DNA from: Pseudomonas sp. R76
Lineage (GTDB): Bacteria > Pseudomonadota > Gammaproteobacteria > Pseudomonadales > Pseudomonadaceae
DNA length: 64,000 nucleotides
Assembly: GCF_009834565.1 (NCBI RefSeq)
Contig: NZ_CP019428.1
Span: 5,766,001-5,830,000, forward strand
Direction: 5' to 3'
Within the stretch, counting starts at the first letter, position 1; every line of letters starts with the position of its first letter. Positions 56,225 through 63,957 of the stretch are shown in pieces. The notes beneath the pieces were generated by a model that saw only the letters and a program-made list of their open reading frames with translations, was not told the DNA's origin and did no database searches. The translations under genes were made by a program, and so were the position numbers.

Positions 56225-56621
56225 GGGGCCGTTTAGGATTCGACGCCGGTCGCGAAACTTTAGGTGCATGCCGAGTTGGTAACAGAACTCGTAAATCCAC
56301 TGTTGCAACTTCTTATAGTTGCCAATGACGAAAACTACGGCCAGGAATTCGCTCTCGCTGCGTAAGCAGCCTTAGCCCTGAGCTTCTGGTACCTTCGGGT
56401 CCAGCAATCACCAGGGGATGTCTGTAAACCCAAAGTGATTGTCATATAGAACAGAATCGCCGTGCAGTACGTTGTGGACGAAGCGGCTAAAACTTACACA
56501 ACTCGCCCAAAGCACCCTGCCCTTCGGGTCGCTGAGGGTTAACTTAATAGAAACGGCTACGCATGTAGTACCGACAGCGGAGTACTGGCGGACGGGGGTT
56601 CAAATCCCCCCGGCTCCACCA
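56225..56621 (+). ncRNA. ssrA: tmRNA (ssrA)
   Basis: The 397-nt RNA starts GGGGCCGTTTAGGATTCGACG and ends with a T-arm and acceptor finishing in CCACCA. The resume codon GCC 56321 begins the tag reading frame ANDENYGQEFALAA followed by TAA 56363-56365, so the tag on proteins is A plus these 14 residues. The tRNA-like ends pair (GGGGCC with GGCTCC). The intact 3' end is next to an integrase gene and so forms the attachment site. A terminator follows at 56633. Confidence 0.97.
56595..56621 (+). other. Probable attL core in the tmRNA 3' end
   Basis: Integrative elements that use ssrA recombine in its 3' T-arm/acceptor part. The integrase gene is 185 bases downstream in the same direction, so this 3' end is the likely left attachment core. 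The right copy must lie beyond 64000, so the exact core cannot be read here. Confidence 0.6.
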
Positions 56622-56632
56622 CCTCAACATCT

Positions 56633-56660
56633 AAAGACGTCCACGGACGTCTTTTTTTGT
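56633..56660 (+). terminator. Terminator of ssrA
   Basis: AAAGACGTCC-AC-GGACGTCTTT is followed by a run of T. The 10-bp left arm recurs at 56706-56715 in the element, where no stem forms. Confidence 0.85.
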
Positions 56661-56734
56661 GCCTGAAATCCAGCAAATACAGGGCTTTCAGGGCCATCAG
56701 TGTCCAAAGACGTCCGATAGAATCTACGACCATT

Positions 56735-56804
56735 GGTATTCCACATGGTATTCCAAGCCCTTCAGTGGTAATTTTTGGAATACCGAACGATGTCGTGGAA
56801 TACC
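56735..56804. promoter_or_regulatory. Four-copy GGTATTCC/GGAATACC motif before the integrase
   Basis: GGTATTCC lies at 56735 and 56747 and its reverse complement GGAATACC at 56777 and 56797. The last copy ends two bases before ATG 56807, covering the ribosome-binding region. The two-plus-two inverted arrangement suggests an operator or integrase arm sites. Confidence 0.6.
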
Positions 56805-56806
56805 TC

Positions 56807-58063
56807 ATGTGCGCCCAAGCCACCCGCCTCTCTGATCGTCAGCTCAAAGCTATCAAGCCGAAAGATAAAGATTACGTCCTCAGCGATGGCGACGGCCTTC
56901 AATTACGAGTGAGAATCAATGGCTCTACGCTATGGAACTTCAACTACCGCCATCCGGTAACGAAGAATCGTATCAACATGGGACTCGGCACCTACCCAGA
57001 GCTCTCTCTCGCGCAAGCAAGAAAGAAAACGGTCGAAGCCAGAGAACTGCTTGCACAAGCCATCGACCCGAAAGAGCAACGCAATGCGTTGACGCAAACA
57101 AAAAAAGCAGCAACTGAGCACACGTTCGAGAACGTAGCTGCTACTTGGTTTGAGCTAAAGCAGGATGTCGTTACACCGGCCTATGCCGAAGACATATGGC
57201 GCTCTCTCATCCTGCACGTATTTCCAAAGCTCGGAACTACACCTCTCTCGCAAATCACTGCGCCCATGGTCATCGAATTGCTCCGCCCCTTGGAAGCGAA
57301 AGGCAGCTTGGAGACAGTGAAGCGACTGACTCAAAGGCTCAATGAAATCATGATCTATGGCGTGAACTCGGGGGTGATCTTCGCCAATCCTCTCAGCGGC
57401 ATCCGGGGCGTTTTCAAGAAACCGAAAAAGCAGAATATGGCGGCTCTTCGACCAGAAGAACTGCCAGAACTGATGATTGCAATCGCCAACGCGAGCATCA
57501 AAAGGACAACCCGCTGCTTAATCGAATGGCAGCTTCACACCATGACGCGCCCTGCGGAAGCCGCTACAACTTGCTGGGCTGACATCGACCTCGAAAGGAA
57601 GATCTGGACAATCCCTGCCGAACGCATGAAAAAGCGACGCCCACACGCCATACCGCTGACCGAGCACGCACTTGCTCTGCTGGAGACCATCAAACCCTAT
57701 AGCGGCCATCGAGAGTTTGTATTCCCTGCTGACAGAGACCCACGCACTCACTGCAACAGCCAGACAGCCAATATGGCGCTGAAGCGGATGGGCTTCGAAG
57801 GGCGCTTGGTAAGTCATGGTATGCGTTCAATGGCGAGCACCATCCTCAACGAGCAGGGCTGGGATCCTGAATTGATAGAAGTCGCACTTGCACACGTCGA
57901 TAAAGACGAGGTTCGAAGCGCCTATAACCGAGCGGACTACATCGAGCGCAGACGCCCAATGATGGCCTGGTGGAGCGACCACATTCAGGAAGCCGCTACC
58001 GGCAATCTTTCTGTGTCAGCTATCAGAGAAAAACGGGATTTAAAAGTCGTTTCGATACGCTGA
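56807..58063 (+). CDS. Tyrosine integrase of an ssrA-linked element
   Basis: This P4-type integrase (418 residues from ATG 56807) has the N-terminal DUF4102 arm-binding domain (about 1-90, with RLSDRQLKAIKP and GLQLRV), a SAM-like core-binding domain (about 105-200) and the catalytic domain with Arg248 (HTMTRPAEA), HGMR (His337, Arg340), His363 (LAHVDKDEVR) and the Tyr373 nucleophile (SAYNRADYIERRRPMM). The same frame is open back to GTG 56657, but that extension crosses the operator-like repeats and shows no family motif. Position and direction fit site-specific integration at ssrA. Confidence 0.93.
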   Translation: MCAQATRLSDRQLKAIKPKDKDYVLSDGDGLQLRVRINGSTLWNFNYRHPVTKNRINMGLGTYPELSLAQARKKTVEARELLAQAIDPKEQRNALTQTKKAATEHTFENVAATWFELKQDVVTPAYAEDIWRSLILHVFPKLGTTPLSQITAPMVIELLRPLEAKGSLETVKRLTQRLNEIMIYGVNSGVIFANPLSGIRGVFKKPKKQNMAALRPEELPELMIAIANASIKRTTRCLIEWQLHTMTRPAEAATTCWADIDLERKIWTIPAERMKKRRPHAIPLTEHALALLETIKPYSGHREFVFPADRDPRTHCNSQTANMALKRMGFEGRLVSHGMRSMASTILNEQGWDPELIEVALAHVDKDEVRSAYNRADYIERRRPMMAWWSDHIQEAATGNLSVSAIREKRDLKVVSIR

Positions 58064-58275: not shown

Positions 58276-58366
58276 ATTTAAATAAGTTGAATTGGCCTCT
58301 CTCTGGAGCATATATTGGAGGCAGCAGTATGAGCTGCGACACCACCCACCATAGGTAGACGTAACC

Positions 58367-58879
58367 ATGAACCGCCCTAAACCCAACACCACAGCCATAG
58401 AGGAGAGTGCTCATGCTTCTCCGGCTGAGTCCTGGGGCGAAAGGGAGTTAGCTCGCGAGATTGCGCTGCTAGAAGCGCATGTTCATGAAGACAGGATCAG
58501 TCGACTGATCGATGAAGCGCATGTTGCAGTAGAGGCCAACAACCCAGAAGGACTCAAAGGCCTCCACTACGAAATCCTCCCAGTCAATATCGAGGAAGAG
58601 CTTAAGCAAAGCTACCTGGATTACGCGATGTCCGTGATCGTAGGTAGAGCGCTGCCCGACGGCAAAGCAGTGAACACTCTCCGTGATTTATCGCGTAGAG
58701 GGATATCGCTTTTCACAAGCTTTGCGCATCGCCTTTCAGCAGCCATTGCCATCTGTCGCCTACAAAAAGCTGCCCTCACCTTCATGAGTCTCAGTAAAGC
58801 TGCTGAGATCGCTCGCAACCGAATCCCTCTCTTCGCCTACGGTCCAGAGCTCAGTGAGTTCCGACATAGGCTCCGGTAA
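58367..58879 (+). CDS. Small protein carrying a GyrA N-terminal arm segment
   Basis: The 170-residue protein has a charged N-terminal half (residues 1-68), then residues 69-98 (beginning [12 protein letters not shown], containing [14 protein letters not shown]) that match the very start of DNA gyrase subunit A, then an unrelated C-terminal half (99-170, two short hydrophobic helices near 114-145). The GyrA match stops exactly where GyrA would continue with DGLKPVHRR. In GyrA this arm contacts GyrB and the partner subunit. No ribosome site is clear before ATG 58367. It may be a gene fusion remnant or a gyrase-binding mimic; function unknown. Confidence 0.65.
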
Positions 58880-58933: not shown

Positions 58934-59281
58934 ATGACTACCCGCATTACTTCGGCTGAGTACGAATCAGCCGCCACCATACGCTGTGCCCACTCGTGGG
59001 ATCATCACGCTACACACATTGAGGTTTCGCATACGCACGATCACGATCCGATCGAGCATATCGTAGTCTGCGCCGAATGCGCTCGCCTTGCGGGACTTGT
59101 GCTGTGCTGCGCCTGCGTCGATGAGGCGCTGCTAGTACATGCAGGCTCTGCATCTTGTGAAATGACTCCGGTGTACGCCCCTAATGAGCTGGTCGATGGC
59201 TGCTGCGCCAAACATATCGCGCTGCGTCTTCAACTTGCGCTGACCAGCGACTTGTCTTCGCCGCAGGCTCGTGGTGGCTGA
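58934..59281 (+). CDS. Cys/His-rich small protein
   Basis: The 115-residue protein starts at ATG 58934 after AGAGGAGGGG. It has a cluster of potential metal ligands: CAHSWDHHATH, SHTHDHD, VCAECARLAG, LCCACVDEAL and GCCAKH. A zinc-binding role is plausible, but I recognise no family. It follows the GyrA-arm gene by 54 bases and may be in the same transcript; a hairpin lies 22 bases after its stop. Confidence 0.65.
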   Translation: MTTRITSAEYESAATIRCAHSWDHHATHIEVSHTHDHDPIEHIVVCAECARLAGLVLCCACVDEALLVHAGSASCEMTPVYAPNELVDGCCAKHIALRLQLALTSDLSSPQARGG

Positions 59282-59677: not shown

Positions 59678-60352
59678 ATGTTTACATATTCAGACCGTGA
59701 CTTTATGTCGAAAAGCATGAAGGTAGTTGTTGAGTCAATTGAGTCAAAGCTGAGTGAGCCATTCTTTTCGGAGTTCAAGGAGGTCGCGATAGCCGCAATA
59801 TCAAGATCCATAGAAACAATTAAGGCATTTGAGGCGTCTGGGGTGCATCGAGACCTTTCGTGCTTCAGAGGCAATCAGGCCGAAGACTTGATAAATGCGC
59901 TTTTCTGCGAGATCACTGACGAGATAGTAAATAGCGAAGCGTTTCAGGTGCTCGACGCCTTGCGACATTCATTTGTGTGTTATGCATACAATGGCCTGCA
60001 TCAACTTTATACGCGTCAAGAAAATGAGTGTTGGCACCCCCAAATAGTGCTCACAGAAGTGCTTGAGCCAAACGATATTGACTCATTGCCTCGGGTTTTG
60101 ACCCTATATCGAGGCTGCGATAGAAGCGAGCTTGAAAACCGCTCCTTCGGACAAGCGTGGTCTACATCGTTAGAGTCAGCTCAAAAATTTGCGTATGCTC
60201 ATTATTTAGGCCAGGACTGGTTTGATGAAAATAACAGGGTCGTATTGGAAACGAGATACCGAAAAGACTATGTTTTATTTTCGGATCAATCAATAGAGTA
60301 TGAGGTGGTAGTTGATATCAACAAATTGGATGGAGTACACAAACACGCTTAA
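59678..60352 (+). CDS. Candidate R-S-E class ADP-ribosyltransferase
   Basis: The 224-residue protein has an N-terminal helical part (1-135) and a C-terminal part with the three signature elements of R-S-E mono-ADP-ribosyltransferases in order: LTLYRGC (Arg145), WSTS (Ser162-Thr163-Ser164) followed by AQKFAYAHY, and the ExE pair in SIEYEVVVD (Glu207, Glu209). This pattern marks enzymes that transfer ADP-ribose from NAD to protein side chains, seen in toxins and in phage-host conflict. No signal peptide is seen. ATG 59678 is used; ATG 59705 is possible. The codon use is AT-richer than the core genes, and an antitoxin is not seen nearby. Confidence 0.6.
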   Translation: MFTYSDRDFMSKSMKVVVESIESKLSEPFFSEFKEVAIAAISRSIETIKAFEASGVHRDLSCFRGNQAEDLINALFCEITDEIVNSEAFQVLDALRHSFVCYAYNGLHQLYTRQENECWHPQIVLTEVLEPNDIDSLPRVLTLYRGCDRSELENRSFGQAWSTSLESAQKFAYAHYLGQDWFDENNRVVLETRYRKDYVLFSDQSIEYEVVVDINKLDGVHKHA

Positions 60353-60603: not shown

Positions 60604-63600
60604 TCACTCTTTGCCGAAAAGGGCTCTTGCCAATTTCTGCATGCGTCCCTTGTTCCCATGCTGCTCGGACAGGTTAGTGTAGATATTTGGGAGGCGTTCC
60701 TTAAGCTTGGTTACCTGGGAAGCGTACGTGTCTTTATGTTCATTAGAAATTTTCCAGTCAGCGAATTGAGACGCTCTTGAATCTATAAAACTCGCTGCGG
60801 ATCTTGTGCCCTCAGGATCATTGTTCATCTGCAGTAGTATCTGAAGAAGGCGTTCCTCCTCTTCAGGTGTTCTAGGGGTGATGCTCGGCAACAGCTCGCC
60901 GTATTCGCCCAGAATAAAGATTGAGGCCTCCACAGAGACTTTGAGATCGTATACAGATGGTCGAAGCATGGTGCCAGTAATGGCGCGGGTGTCTTTTTCA
61001 AAGAGGTTGAGCAGTAGCTTTGAATTCTGAATGATCGTGGAGGAAGGTTTGGCGAACGTGGCTTGTTTGACTGCAGCTATAAGCCAGACGGACATAGCTT
61101 GGTGAGCCGAAGTCTCACCCGCAAAATCGATTTTGTGGTCGATCATGTATCTCAACGCAGTTCGCTCATTGGTGCTGGCAGCTTCAATGAGGTTCGTCCA
61201 TCCAGAAGCATCAATACCTATCCCAAAGCTTCGATCAAGTATGGCGGCTCGCAACTCCAGCAACTTGGCGTTGGATCCCTCAAGGACGTGCCTCAAGAAC
61301 AGCGTGTCGATATCTGGCAGCGCGGGTACTTTCTCGGATGCCAAGTTGAACGAGGTGAACCAATCAAGAAATTCATTATCCGTTAGGTCGTAGCCACTCA
61401 GCCTATCCGCAAGGGTCGAATACGACTCATAGACGTGGTCAGAGGCAACGTTTCCGATGGCTCCGACCTTAATCAGCCTAGATAGAATCGGTGCCACTAG
61501 GTGTGAAGACTCATCTTCAATCGTCAGTTTGAACAGGTTTTCAGAGATGATCGCTGCCCGAACCAACGCGTCCAGATAATCCTGTTCGGCTTCAAGGGCC
61601 TCCTTGATGCCTGGAATCTCGCTTAGTGGTACCCCCGTGTTCAGCCTCATGTACATGACTGCAATTGAGACTTTGATGCGGTTGGATTTCACGTTAGGTA
61701 GATGAACCAGAATCAGCTGTGGTATCGCGCTGGAAAGCTTTCCGAACAGGGCTGCTGCGAACCAGACCCTATGTTCAGTAGGGTTCAAATCAATTGCCGT
61801 CGTAACTGCCGTAGTGGCCTCAACACCTAAGAAATAAGGCCTAGGGATAGTGCTCAGTCTTTTTTGGCCAAAATAGGCTGTGAAACATGGCAGCCAATCG
61901 CTTTCATTGAGTGGCACTCGATTCAGCTTTGCATGCTCAGTCGCTGCCAGTTGCAGCACTGCGTCCCTCAAGCCATTGTCGTTGAGGCTGATTTTACTCG
62001 TATCAATCTTTTTGAGATCTGGATCGGGCATCACCATATGGAACAACAGTTCAGCACCACCCATGGTCAAGGGTTCAAAGAGGGCGTTCACAGAATCCAG
62101 GTAGCTGTCGTACCTGGAAATGGTCTCTGTATAGCGTTCAACAGACTCAGGATCATAGGCCTCTTCTGCCATTTCTTCGAACGCGGTTTTGGCAGTCGCC
62201 AGTGCTTTATCGAAGATGTCTCTGCGTAGGCCTAACCCAATCAGTCCTTTGATGGATTCAAAGTAACCGGGTTCTGTGCTTACCGTATTCAACTGATCCC
62301 CATTCCCGAATTTCGCACTCACGTGCGGCAGCAGGTCATCAATACTGCATCCTTCCATTTGAGACGCTTGACGGAGGGTTTTCAGAAGACTGACCGGGGA
62401 AACAGGTGTCTCCAAGCGGCGAACAAAAGAGTCTTTGAACCCAAAGTAAGGGACGAGTGCGGCGAGCTTTTTACCGTCCTGGGATTCGATAGCATCTTCA
62501 AGTGGCTGGTCGATCAGCTCAGCGATGGCGATATCCGAAGATGTCTGGAAATGGATCTGTAGGATCTGGATGGGCCAGCCTGTTTTCATGTCCTCTCCCA
62601 GAAGTGCCTTCAGGGAGCGTTTGGTTTTATCGATGTTCAGCGCCACGGCTTGGGCGGTTTCATCTTCAGCCTCTGTGGCGCTCTTAGCGCTCTCACCGAT
62701 CGTCGGAGCATCTGGGTCTTTCAGCATCTCCTCGATGGCCACGCTATTATATTTGCAGATTGCCAGGTAGGCGGCGATGCAGATTACGCTTGGTCTATCT
62801 GCAGTGACCAGCAGTGTGGTTGCGATGTCGTTGATGAATCTTTTCTGTAGGCGAGGAGTCACCAACCCGCCAGCCATGGGGCTATGACGCTGGAGAATCA
62901 CGCTGCACGCATCAGCATCCAACAGGTTGGATGCACCAAAACTCTCACTCCAAAGTTTCCTGAATGCATCTTTCCAGCCGGATGTGATGATCGGCGGGGT
63001 ACGGAACACCACAGGGAACTTTTTGGCGATGAAGTCCTTCGAGTCGTAGCTCTGCTCGTTATCACCATTGAGATATTTGGATACCTTTGTGGAGCAGAAT
63101 GGCACTATGACACTGAGATTTTCCTCGCCTGTGACGGACGTGAAAATTTCTAGATCGCTCCATACCGCTCGTAAGACATCCCGTGGGAGCCTGTCCAAGT
63201 TATCGATCACAATGATGATGTGGTAATCCTTCACTGCATGTAGCTGCTTCCGGAGGGCCTGCTTCAAATCGAGAGGGCTTACCTCTTTGCTGACTTCGAT
63301 AGTTTCGGTGATTCGATCATCTGAGCTGCCTTTGAGCAGACTGGCCAAGTTCCAGCGCTTCTTAGGATCCTCTTCTCTTCGGTTAGCCAGATACGCGAAC
63401 AGAAGAATAATCCCAGGCGCTGTGCACGCCAGCAGGTAAAGAGCATGGAGCCCTAGGGCGAGAGAATCGCTGCCATGAAGGCGAATTAGATAGTCACGAA
63501 TAAAGGTCGGCGTAAGTACACCACTTGCGATCAGTAGCACTGCCCAGATACTGATATGACTGCGGGTGTCCTTCGTGTAGCTGTAGTGCCGACCTAAGGC

Positions 63601-63957
63601 GATGTCGCGGCTGGTTTCGACCTCCGCGATTTGCTTTTCTCGCCCCAATGTCTTGAGCAGTTCTGTCACTTGCTCGGTCAGTTGTTGGATAAAATTGCTT
63701 TTGATCGAGCCTTGATAATTCTGCTCGCAGTCAAAGAGCCACAGCTTCGTCTTCGACTTCTCCGTAACGATCTTCTTTTCGAGCATCTGAAGGATCGAGC
63801 TCTTCCCTGAGCCGAATTCACCGTCCAATCCAATCACCCGGTGATTGGTTTTAGGCTTTAGATAATCATGCATCGCTTGAGCCACGCGGTCGTGACTCTC
63901 GCCCTTGAAAACATCGACATCGGACGGGCTTTCATTTTGAAAGTTTAGGTTGTTCAT
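60604..63957 (-). CDS. KAP-family membrane P-loop NTPase
   Basis: The 1117-residue protein is an STAND-like KAP NTPase. It has Walker A in GLDGEFGSGKSSIL (residues 46-53), two membrane helices (about 135-153 and 167-192) inserted between the Walker motifs as is typical of KAP, and Walker B HIIIVIDNLDRL (247-256). The C-terminal 600 residues are mostly helical and of unknown function. KAP NTPases include phage-exclusion protein PifA of plasmid F and several predicted defence proteins. AAGGGA precedes ATG 63957. Convergent with the ADP-ribosyltransferase gene. Upstream neighbours lie beyond the window. Confidence 0.85.
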   Translation of the reverse strand: MNNLNFQNESPSDVDVFKGESHDRVAQAMHDYLKPKTNHRVIGLDGEFGSGKSSILQMLEKKIVTEKSKTKLWLFDCEQNYQGSIKSNFIQQLTEQVTELLKTLGREKQIAEVETSRDIALGRHYSYTKDTRSHISIWAVLLIASGVLTPTFIRDYLIRLHGSDSLALGLHALYLLACTAPGIILLFAYLANRREEDPKKRWNLASLLKGSSDDRITETIEVSKEVSPLDLKQALRKQLHAVKDYHIIIVIDNLDRLPRDVLRAVWSDLEIFTSVTGEENLSVIVPFCSTKVSKYLNGDNEQSYDSKDFIAKKFPVVFRTPPIITSGWKDAFRKLWSESFGASNLLDADACSVILQRHSPMAGGLVTPRLQKRFINDIATTLLVTADRPSVICIAAYLAICKYNSVAIEEMLKDPDAPTIGESAKSATEAEDETAQAVALNIDKTKRSLKALLGEDMKTGWPIQILQIHFQTSSDIAIAELIDQPLEDAIESQDGKKLAALVPYFGFKDSFVRRLETPVSPVSLLKTLRQASQMEGCSIDDLLPHVSAKFGNGDQLNTVSTEPGYFESIKGLIGLGLRRDIFDKALATAKTAFEEMAEEAYDPESVERYTETISRYDSYLDSVNALFEPLTMGGAELLFHMVMPDPDLKKIDTSKISLNDNGLRDAVLQLAATEHAKLNRVPLNESDWLPCFTAYFGQKRLSTIPRPYFLGVEATTAVTTAIDLNPTEHRVWFAAALFGKLSSAIPQLILVHLPNVKSNRIKVSIAVMYMRLNTGVPLSEIPGIKEALEAEQDYLDALVRAAIISENLFKLTIEDESSHLVAPILSRLIKVGAIGNVASDHVYESYSTLADRLSGYDLTDNEFLDWFTSFNLASEKVPALPDIDTLFLRHVLEGSNAKLLELRAAILDRSFGIGIDASGWTNLIEAASTNERTALRYMIDHKIDFAGETSAHQAMSVWLIAAVKQATFAKPSSTIIQNSKLLLNLFEKDTRAITGTMLRPSVYDLKVSVEASIFILGEYGELLPSITPRTPEEEERLLQILLQMNNDPEGTRSAASFIDSRASQFADWKISNEHKDTYASQVTKLKERLPNIYTNLSEQHGNKGRMQKLARALFGKE

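Follow-up and report, generated by a model that had tools for sequence, protein, structure and literature searches.

A two-gene cassette of Pseudomonadaceae whose first protein carries a captured GyrA N-terminal arm

The window, that is, the whole stretch of 64,000 nucleotides of Pseudomonas sp. R76 DNA that was analysed, contains a two-gene cassette, A-B, for which no description was found. Protein A (58367..58879, + strand; an ORF with 54 aligned family rows) is a helical protein of 170 residues that contains an N-terminal-arm helix of gyrase subunit A (GyrA), and protein B (58934..59281, + strand), its zinc-finger-like partner of 115 residues, is encoded 54 nt after it. The arm segment is of GyrA origin and represents an old capture. 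Judging from the sequences, we give a little less than an even chance to the reading that protein A is a GyrB-directed mimic with protein B as its antidote or regulator.

The arm segment (58571..58660, + strand) corresponds to residues 69-98 of protein A, and 29 of these 30 residues are identical to residues 7-36 of the host GyrA. The first-pass annotation had matched it to the first 30 residues of GyrA; the segment is real, but the match begins at GyrA residue 7 and the leading MGELAK lies outside it. BLASTP aligned residues 69-111 of protein A with residues 7-47 of GyrA (32/43 identical, E 2e-17 for that single comparison), the match being extended weakly as far as residue 111 of protein A, and the NCBIfam model TIGR01063 (gyrA) matched over its positions 1-31 only (41.8 bits, E 3.4e-11). 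When the host's own genome was searched with protein A, gyrA was recovered through the arm stretch (E 1.0e-12), and the arms of four homologues (P0002, P0005, P0006, and P0009) were identical to GyrA at 30/30 positions; a chance match is therefore excluded.

The similarity to gyrase did not extend beyond the arm. With 41.8 bits against a gyrA-model cut-off of 877 bits, protein A failed as a full-length GyrA, a Pfam search of it returned no family, and a profile of residues 99-151 did not report GyrA, giving no homology past the arm into the winged-helix domain. Thus, since the match to the gyrA model covers positions 1-31 only and neither Pfam nor the profile pointed elsewhere to GyrA, protein A contains an isolated GyrA N-terminal arm within another protein, as the claim that both flanks are unrelated to gyrase had implied. 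AlphaFold2 gave an all-helical prediction (pLDDT 74.2, pTM 0.59) with helices at residues 23-58, 73-93 (the arm), 98-113, 119-151, and 160-165. Protein A therefore resembles GyrA in the near-identity over GyrA 7-36 and in the predicted helix within that stretch, and it differs from GyrA in lacking all the rest of it, the stretch being embedded in an unrelated helical protein.

At the DNA level, 71 of 93 nucleotides of the arm, and 15 of 31 third codon positions, were equal to the host gyrA, whereas the gyrA genes of seven compared genomes had 81-93 of these 93 nucleotides in common with each other. These values make the capture an old one, in agreement with the earlier remark that the third positions differ and that the copy is not very recent.

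Sequence comparison places protein A in an undescribed Pseudomonadaceae family with helical flanks. Among the best 120 of 2045 matched proteins, 46 homologues (P0002-P0047, of which P0021 is incomplete) were ranked above the block of GyrA fragments, with E values of at most 1.9e-12 and identities of 33-94%. A second search, with arm-poor members as queries chosen to avoid a flood of GyrA matches, gave six further members and confirmed the member at locus L041. The alignment of 54 rows consists of the members from both searches and one from locus L067, without P0021. All organism names shown were Pseudomonas or Metapseudomonas except for that of P0021. This UniRef entry, which holds a piece of the Pseudomonas family, bears the name of the nematode Steinernema glaseri, probably through bacterial contamination of the assembly. 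Scattered weak matches in single rows were all that Pfam found in the alignment of family A, protein A matched neither CcdB, ParE, nor other catalogued toxin families in Pfam, NCBIfam, and PADLOC searches, and the PADLOC models gave no family for A and B of the window or for P0122 and P0123.

Full-length relatives of protein A were present in 5 of 398 genomes sampled from the genus. Some match to it occurred in 396 of the 398, and among the matches listed, those in non-carrier genomes came from distant relatives or from the arm within a long GyrA frame. Searching with the partner gene, we found the cassette in 5 of 398 genomes sampled from the family, belonging to 3 of 19 genera, and no family member was found in the plasmids, phage records, and viral contigs searched.

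The arm could also have arisen by a local gyrA duplication without function inside an unrelated ORF. Its DNA is indeed still recognisably gyrA-derived, and dN/dS over gene A was not low (0.54) between the close pair formed by the window and L004. The same ratio was, however, 0.18-0.37 in six distant pairs, full-length open homologues with the arm exist in many lineages, and partner and spacing are conserved. The protein is conserved as a whole. A duplication without function is contradicted by the conserved family, and we regard it as scarcely credible.

Gene B was found 50-78 nt 3' of gene A, in the same direction, in all nine distinct loci compared (the window, L004, L038, which equals L005, L006, L039, L040, L008, L041, and L067; L040 is from the same contig as L007, and L008 from the same contig as L066), and it encoded 99-119 residues; in L040 an internal ATG was taken as its start. 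Eight of the loci were found through A, and every one of them had B after A; L067 was found through B, and A was present in all five genomes found in that way. The pair thereby shows the feature of two small adjacent genes kept together that characterises type II toxin-antitoxin systems. By eye, a ribosome site of the GGA(GG) type lies ahead of gene B. In eight aligned partners 28 columns were invariant, including C18, H20, H37, H42, C46, C49, C58, C61, C91, and H94; in 39 partner rows C18, H20, and C46 were invariant and H37, H42, and C49 nearly so. The AlphaFold2 model of protein B was confident (mean pLDDT 87.8) and matched no solved fold at a usable score. No Pfam family was found above the cut-off for protein B, and seven sub-threshold matches were obtained over the eight members, the best being Zn_ribbon_9 (E 0.0057). 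Sub-threshold zinc-ribbon matches together with the Cys/His pattern make it likely that protein B binds zinc.

We built a family tree without the arm columns, rooted it at the midpoint, and scored an arm as GyrA-like when at least 12 of 18 core residues were as in GyrA. Such an arm was present in 39 of 54 rows, all inside the main group of 49 rows and in each of its larger clades. The remaining 15 rows, with a weak (11) or absent (4) arm, were scattered on the tree. Homologues lacking the GyrA segment, one of the findings that the first-pass annotation had named as refuting its reading, thus exist in part of the family. The deepest rows under the midpoint root were armless (P0129 and L067) or had a weak arm (P0122, P0126, and P0128), the arm of P0128 being still marginally matched to GyrA at the expected position (E 0.07, model positions 6-29). 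The arm label required seven changes by parsimony, five of them forced by well-supported branches, on a tree with several long end branches, the joins of which may be false according to a warning of the program. We read this as what one old capture followed by several losses would leave; since the root is not fixed, a capture after the split of the armless branch is equally possible.

In the three loci with a weak or missing arm that we examined (L006, L041, and L067), the pair of A and B persists. As the cassette thus also exists without the arm, the arm is not its only function. That the arm has eroded in several lineages while A and B were retained also speaks for the main rival account, in which the 5' end of gyrA was taken up as an amphipathic helix, or replaced an existing helix, and serves the fold of protein A itself or the A-B complex with no contact to gyrase. 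We consider this account quite possible, though well short of even chance.

The pattern of conservation within the arm bears on both readings. Among 27 representatives, picked by a flank identity below 70% with the arm not looked at, we counted matches to GyrA at 12 'other-face' sites, which lie in the arm but away from its likely packing face; eroded members had been inspected before the faces were defined, and D/E at 77 and K/R at 80 were scored as equal to GyrA. The counts were bimodal, two binomials (0.24/0.84) being 44 log units better than one (lnL -62.3 vs -106.2). Their variance was 14.2. Sets of flank sites with a comparable overall conservation, which were scored against the family consensus and not against GyrA, averaged 4.3, and none of 2000 such sets had a variance as high. 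The bimodality is imperfect (P0028 had 6/12, P0020 and P0036 8/12), and the counts followed flank conservation with r 0.75; rows of similar flank divergence nevertheless still fell into two groups. At a flank conservation of 0.37-0.60, seven rows (P0018, P0029, P0036, P0038, P0040, P0042, and P0046) matched at 8-11 of the 12 sites and six (P0039, P0043, P0044, P0047, P0122, and P0127) at 2-4. Other-face arm sites thus tend to be kept or lost together, unlike the control flank sites, and two groups at similar flank divergence are what one would predict for an arm that functions as one unit, either used or lost.

Residues S82, L84, D85, M88, and S89 are free in eroded members and GyrA-like in most others, and a helix that served only the fold or the A-B complex would leave it unexplained why they stay GyrA-like or go together. 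The inner face (E78, L79, Y83, Y86, A87, V90, and I91), on the other hand, was kept at 7/7 positions even in the eroded arms of P0039 and P0128, which is in favour of that account. With the inner face surviving where the remainder of the arm has disappeared, part of the conservation serves protein A's own fold, and one face of the arm probably serves protein A itself.

In pairwise DNA comparisons, the arm between the window and L039 (genome G010) had a pS of 0.85 and a pN of 0.14, compared with flank pN values of 0.35 and 0.39, so that it has stayed close to GyrA despite saturated synonymous sites, a result that sits poorly with a purely internal role of the helix. Arm pN was 0.29 between the window and L040 (G079; flanks 0.42 and 0.44) and 0.17 between L004 and L039, also below both flanks (0.34-0.44 over the three deep pairs). 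Three of the four deep pairs of arm-bearing loci therefore had an arm pN lower than both flanks; in the fourth, the window and L038, the arm value (0.24) was higher than the flank values (0.18 and 0.21). Against the arm-eroded L006 the arm was the fastest part, with a pN of 0.55 in both pairs (flanks 0.31 and 0.49 in the comparison with the window). Over the whole family, arm-core sites were not slower than those of protein A's own helices (p 0.19, or 0.16 when the five deepest rows were removed), and these equal rates are again what a helix serving protein A alone would show. Close relatives (flank identity at least 0.70) had an arm-core identity of 0.83, within the range of the other helices (0.75-0.84), and residues 69-76 evolve fast. 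Taken together, the comparisons support a constraint on the GyrA segment in several lineages.

The slowest-evolving part of the family, by rates and DNA pairs, is the C-terminal tail of protein A, residues 154-170 (58826..58876, + strand). The median relative rate of residues 152-170 was 0.12, compared with 0.70-1.00 for the helices, and tail pN was 0.00-0.05 in all eight DNA pairs with a pS of 0.49-0.85 in seven of them (0.08 in the close pair of the window and L004). The tail is thus near-invariant and conserved at the protein level. Among 293 genomes sampled across the order it was found in one, the genome of the window itself, and a search with the tail alone led to five further Pseudomonas genomes in which it is joined to other bodies (G366, G140, G311, G163, and G169). 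No arm was present in the frames read of G366, G140, and G311; G163 and G169 had only shorter open frames. A search of the five genomes for partner B, run without a positive control, did not find it. As the tail-only relatives are armless, the arm belongs to a single branch of a superfamily defined by the tail, which also agrees with the helix having been acquired for protein A's own structure.

At L075, L076, L078, and L079 (G366, G140, G311, and G169) we observed proteins without an arm whose C-terminus is a variant of this tail. Small ORFs lie 3' of some tail-only relatives (72 residues at L091, 6679-6897, and 83 residues at L078, 1616-1867); they contain Cys and seemingly have a hydrophobic end stretch, and a wider two-gene pattern among these relatives is possible. 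A protein of 1017 residues (L091, 3030-6083, - strand) near a tail-only relative has a start that appeared SIR2-like by eye.

In the window, the cassette lies 303 nt 3' of a tyrosine integrase (56657..58063, + strand; PF00589, E 9.9e-28, with Arm-DNA-bind_3 and Phage_int_M), which adjoins a tmRNA gene (56225..56621, + strand). By inference, the tmRNA gene is the probable insertion site; for the far island end, no exact tmRNA-end repeat was found in the remainder of the window or in the 40 kb that follow it. A promoter-like TTGAAT-18-TATATT is present at 58287..58316 (+ strand; one found, mean 0.8 in shuffles of this stretch), and by eye 8 of 9 aligned loci, all but L067, have a TTGA[AG] - TATA[TG]T pair with a spacing of 16-18 ahead of gene A. 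Just 3' of the promoter-like site, a short inverted repeat seen by eye, gcagc-7-gctgc (58321..58337, no strand assigned), is a possible operator. The cassette is followed by a protein of 224 residues (59678-60352, + strand) that matched nothing in Pfam, NCBIfam, or PADLOC, and whose YRG...STS pattern, as we take it by eye, recalls mono-ADP-ribosyltransferases. Next comes a KAP-family P-loop NTPase of 1117 residues (60604-63957, - strand; PF07693, E 3.8e-15); it weakly resembles PifA and QatA at their N-termini and is possibly an uncatalogued defence protein.

Other loci have other neighbours: an AbiEi/AbiEii-type pair at L040, near what by eye is an apparent glmS; three large ORFs at L039, of which one has a clear integrase match and another a weak one; TniB and TniQ at L041; a PLD-type protein at L008 and, below the cut-off, at L038; and a UvrD-type helicase at L038. 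Some of the loci thus have neighbours of mobile or defence type. When the neighbours of eight loci (without L067) were compared all against all, only A and B were common to all; L008 and L038 both have transposase-like pieces (by eye), L038 and L039 share a small ORF (34%), and there is one weak pair between L004 and L041 (29%). The A-B cassette thus behaves like a portable accessory module with patchy occurrence.

The AbiE pair, the PLD-type proteins, and the KAP NTPase also invite the thought that protein A imitates the arm as a decoy or guard, catching phage or plasmid proteins that attack gyrase at this site and either protecting the enzyme or triggering a B-dependent response. An arm that is used or lost would fit such a logic. 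Igy is a protein of phage LUZ24. Phage gyrase inhibitors of its kind exist, but the available part of the review covering them describes none that binds to the arm of GyrA (PMC10886550); a decoy seems improbable to us.

In E. coli gyrase, according to the available part of the source, the N-terminal arm of GyrA is the element around which the GyrB TOPRIM insertion turns (PMC6821735). This makes the arm a GyrA-GyrB contact, and its earlier placement at the subunit interface is borne out. That the outer faces of the arm have stayed GyrA-like after long divergence would most simply mean that they meet the same partner, GyrB. If protein A is a GyrB-directed mimic, it would display the captured arm and dock on GyrB where the arm of GyrA sits, and by holding GyrB or gyrase it would restrain or inhibit the enzyme. 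Protein B would be its cognate partner, acting as antidote, co-factor, or regulator, since a fixed second gene suggests control of the activity of A. The pair would form a portable accessory module, most likely of conflict type (addiction or anti-phage). We infer the binding of GyrB, the inhibition of gyrase, the role of B, and the role in conflict from these patterns.

By analogy, YacG, Igy, Qnr, and MfpA would be closest in action to A-B, and the family searches made showed no sequence relation of A or B to any of them. Like the predicted action of A, that of the small protein Igy and of the pentapeptide proteins Qnr and MfpA on gyrase relies on mimicry; they are DNA mimics according to the part of the review available (PMC10886550), whereas in A an interface helix of GyrA is copied. 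YacG, a zinc finger of 65 residues described there as a gyrase inhibitor that binds GyrB and blocks DNA binding (PMC10886550), is comparable as a small zinc-finger protein acting on GyrB, since here a zinc-finger-like B partners a protein with the GyrA arm; it is, however, a single small endogenous protein in that account (PMC10886550), whereas A-B is a gene pair, and the YacG model was not among the Pfam matches of eight B members. CcdAB, ParDE, and TsbAT share with A-B two small adjacent genes, a patchy occurrence, and a possible gyrase target; they differ in that no sequence relation was found and that A would act through a copied subunit interface. The protein inhibitors reviewed act through DNA damage from cleavage complexes, DNA mimicry, modification of GyrB, or a YacG-type block, and in the available text of that review the word 'arm' is absent and no arm mimic is described (PMC10886550). 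Among the titles and abstracts listed as matches in the open literature, there was no description of the A-B family or of a GyrA-arm mimic.

A more specific proposal, that A-B is a new conflict module in which the captured arm blocks gyrase assembly or gate motion from the GyrB side under the control of the zinc-finger partner, we hold to be doubtful. Its corollary, that such a module would work by mimicry of a target subunit and not by DNA mimicry or active-site poisoning, is put forward just as tentatively.

If protein A binds GyrB through its arm, the GyrA-GyrB docking site would be a natural point of attack on gyrase, and the arm protein would offer a compact lead for inhibition at that site. 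Even without binding to GyrB, the family clearly exemplifies how a segment of a housekeeping gene was captured long ago into an accessory protein and has been conserved there.
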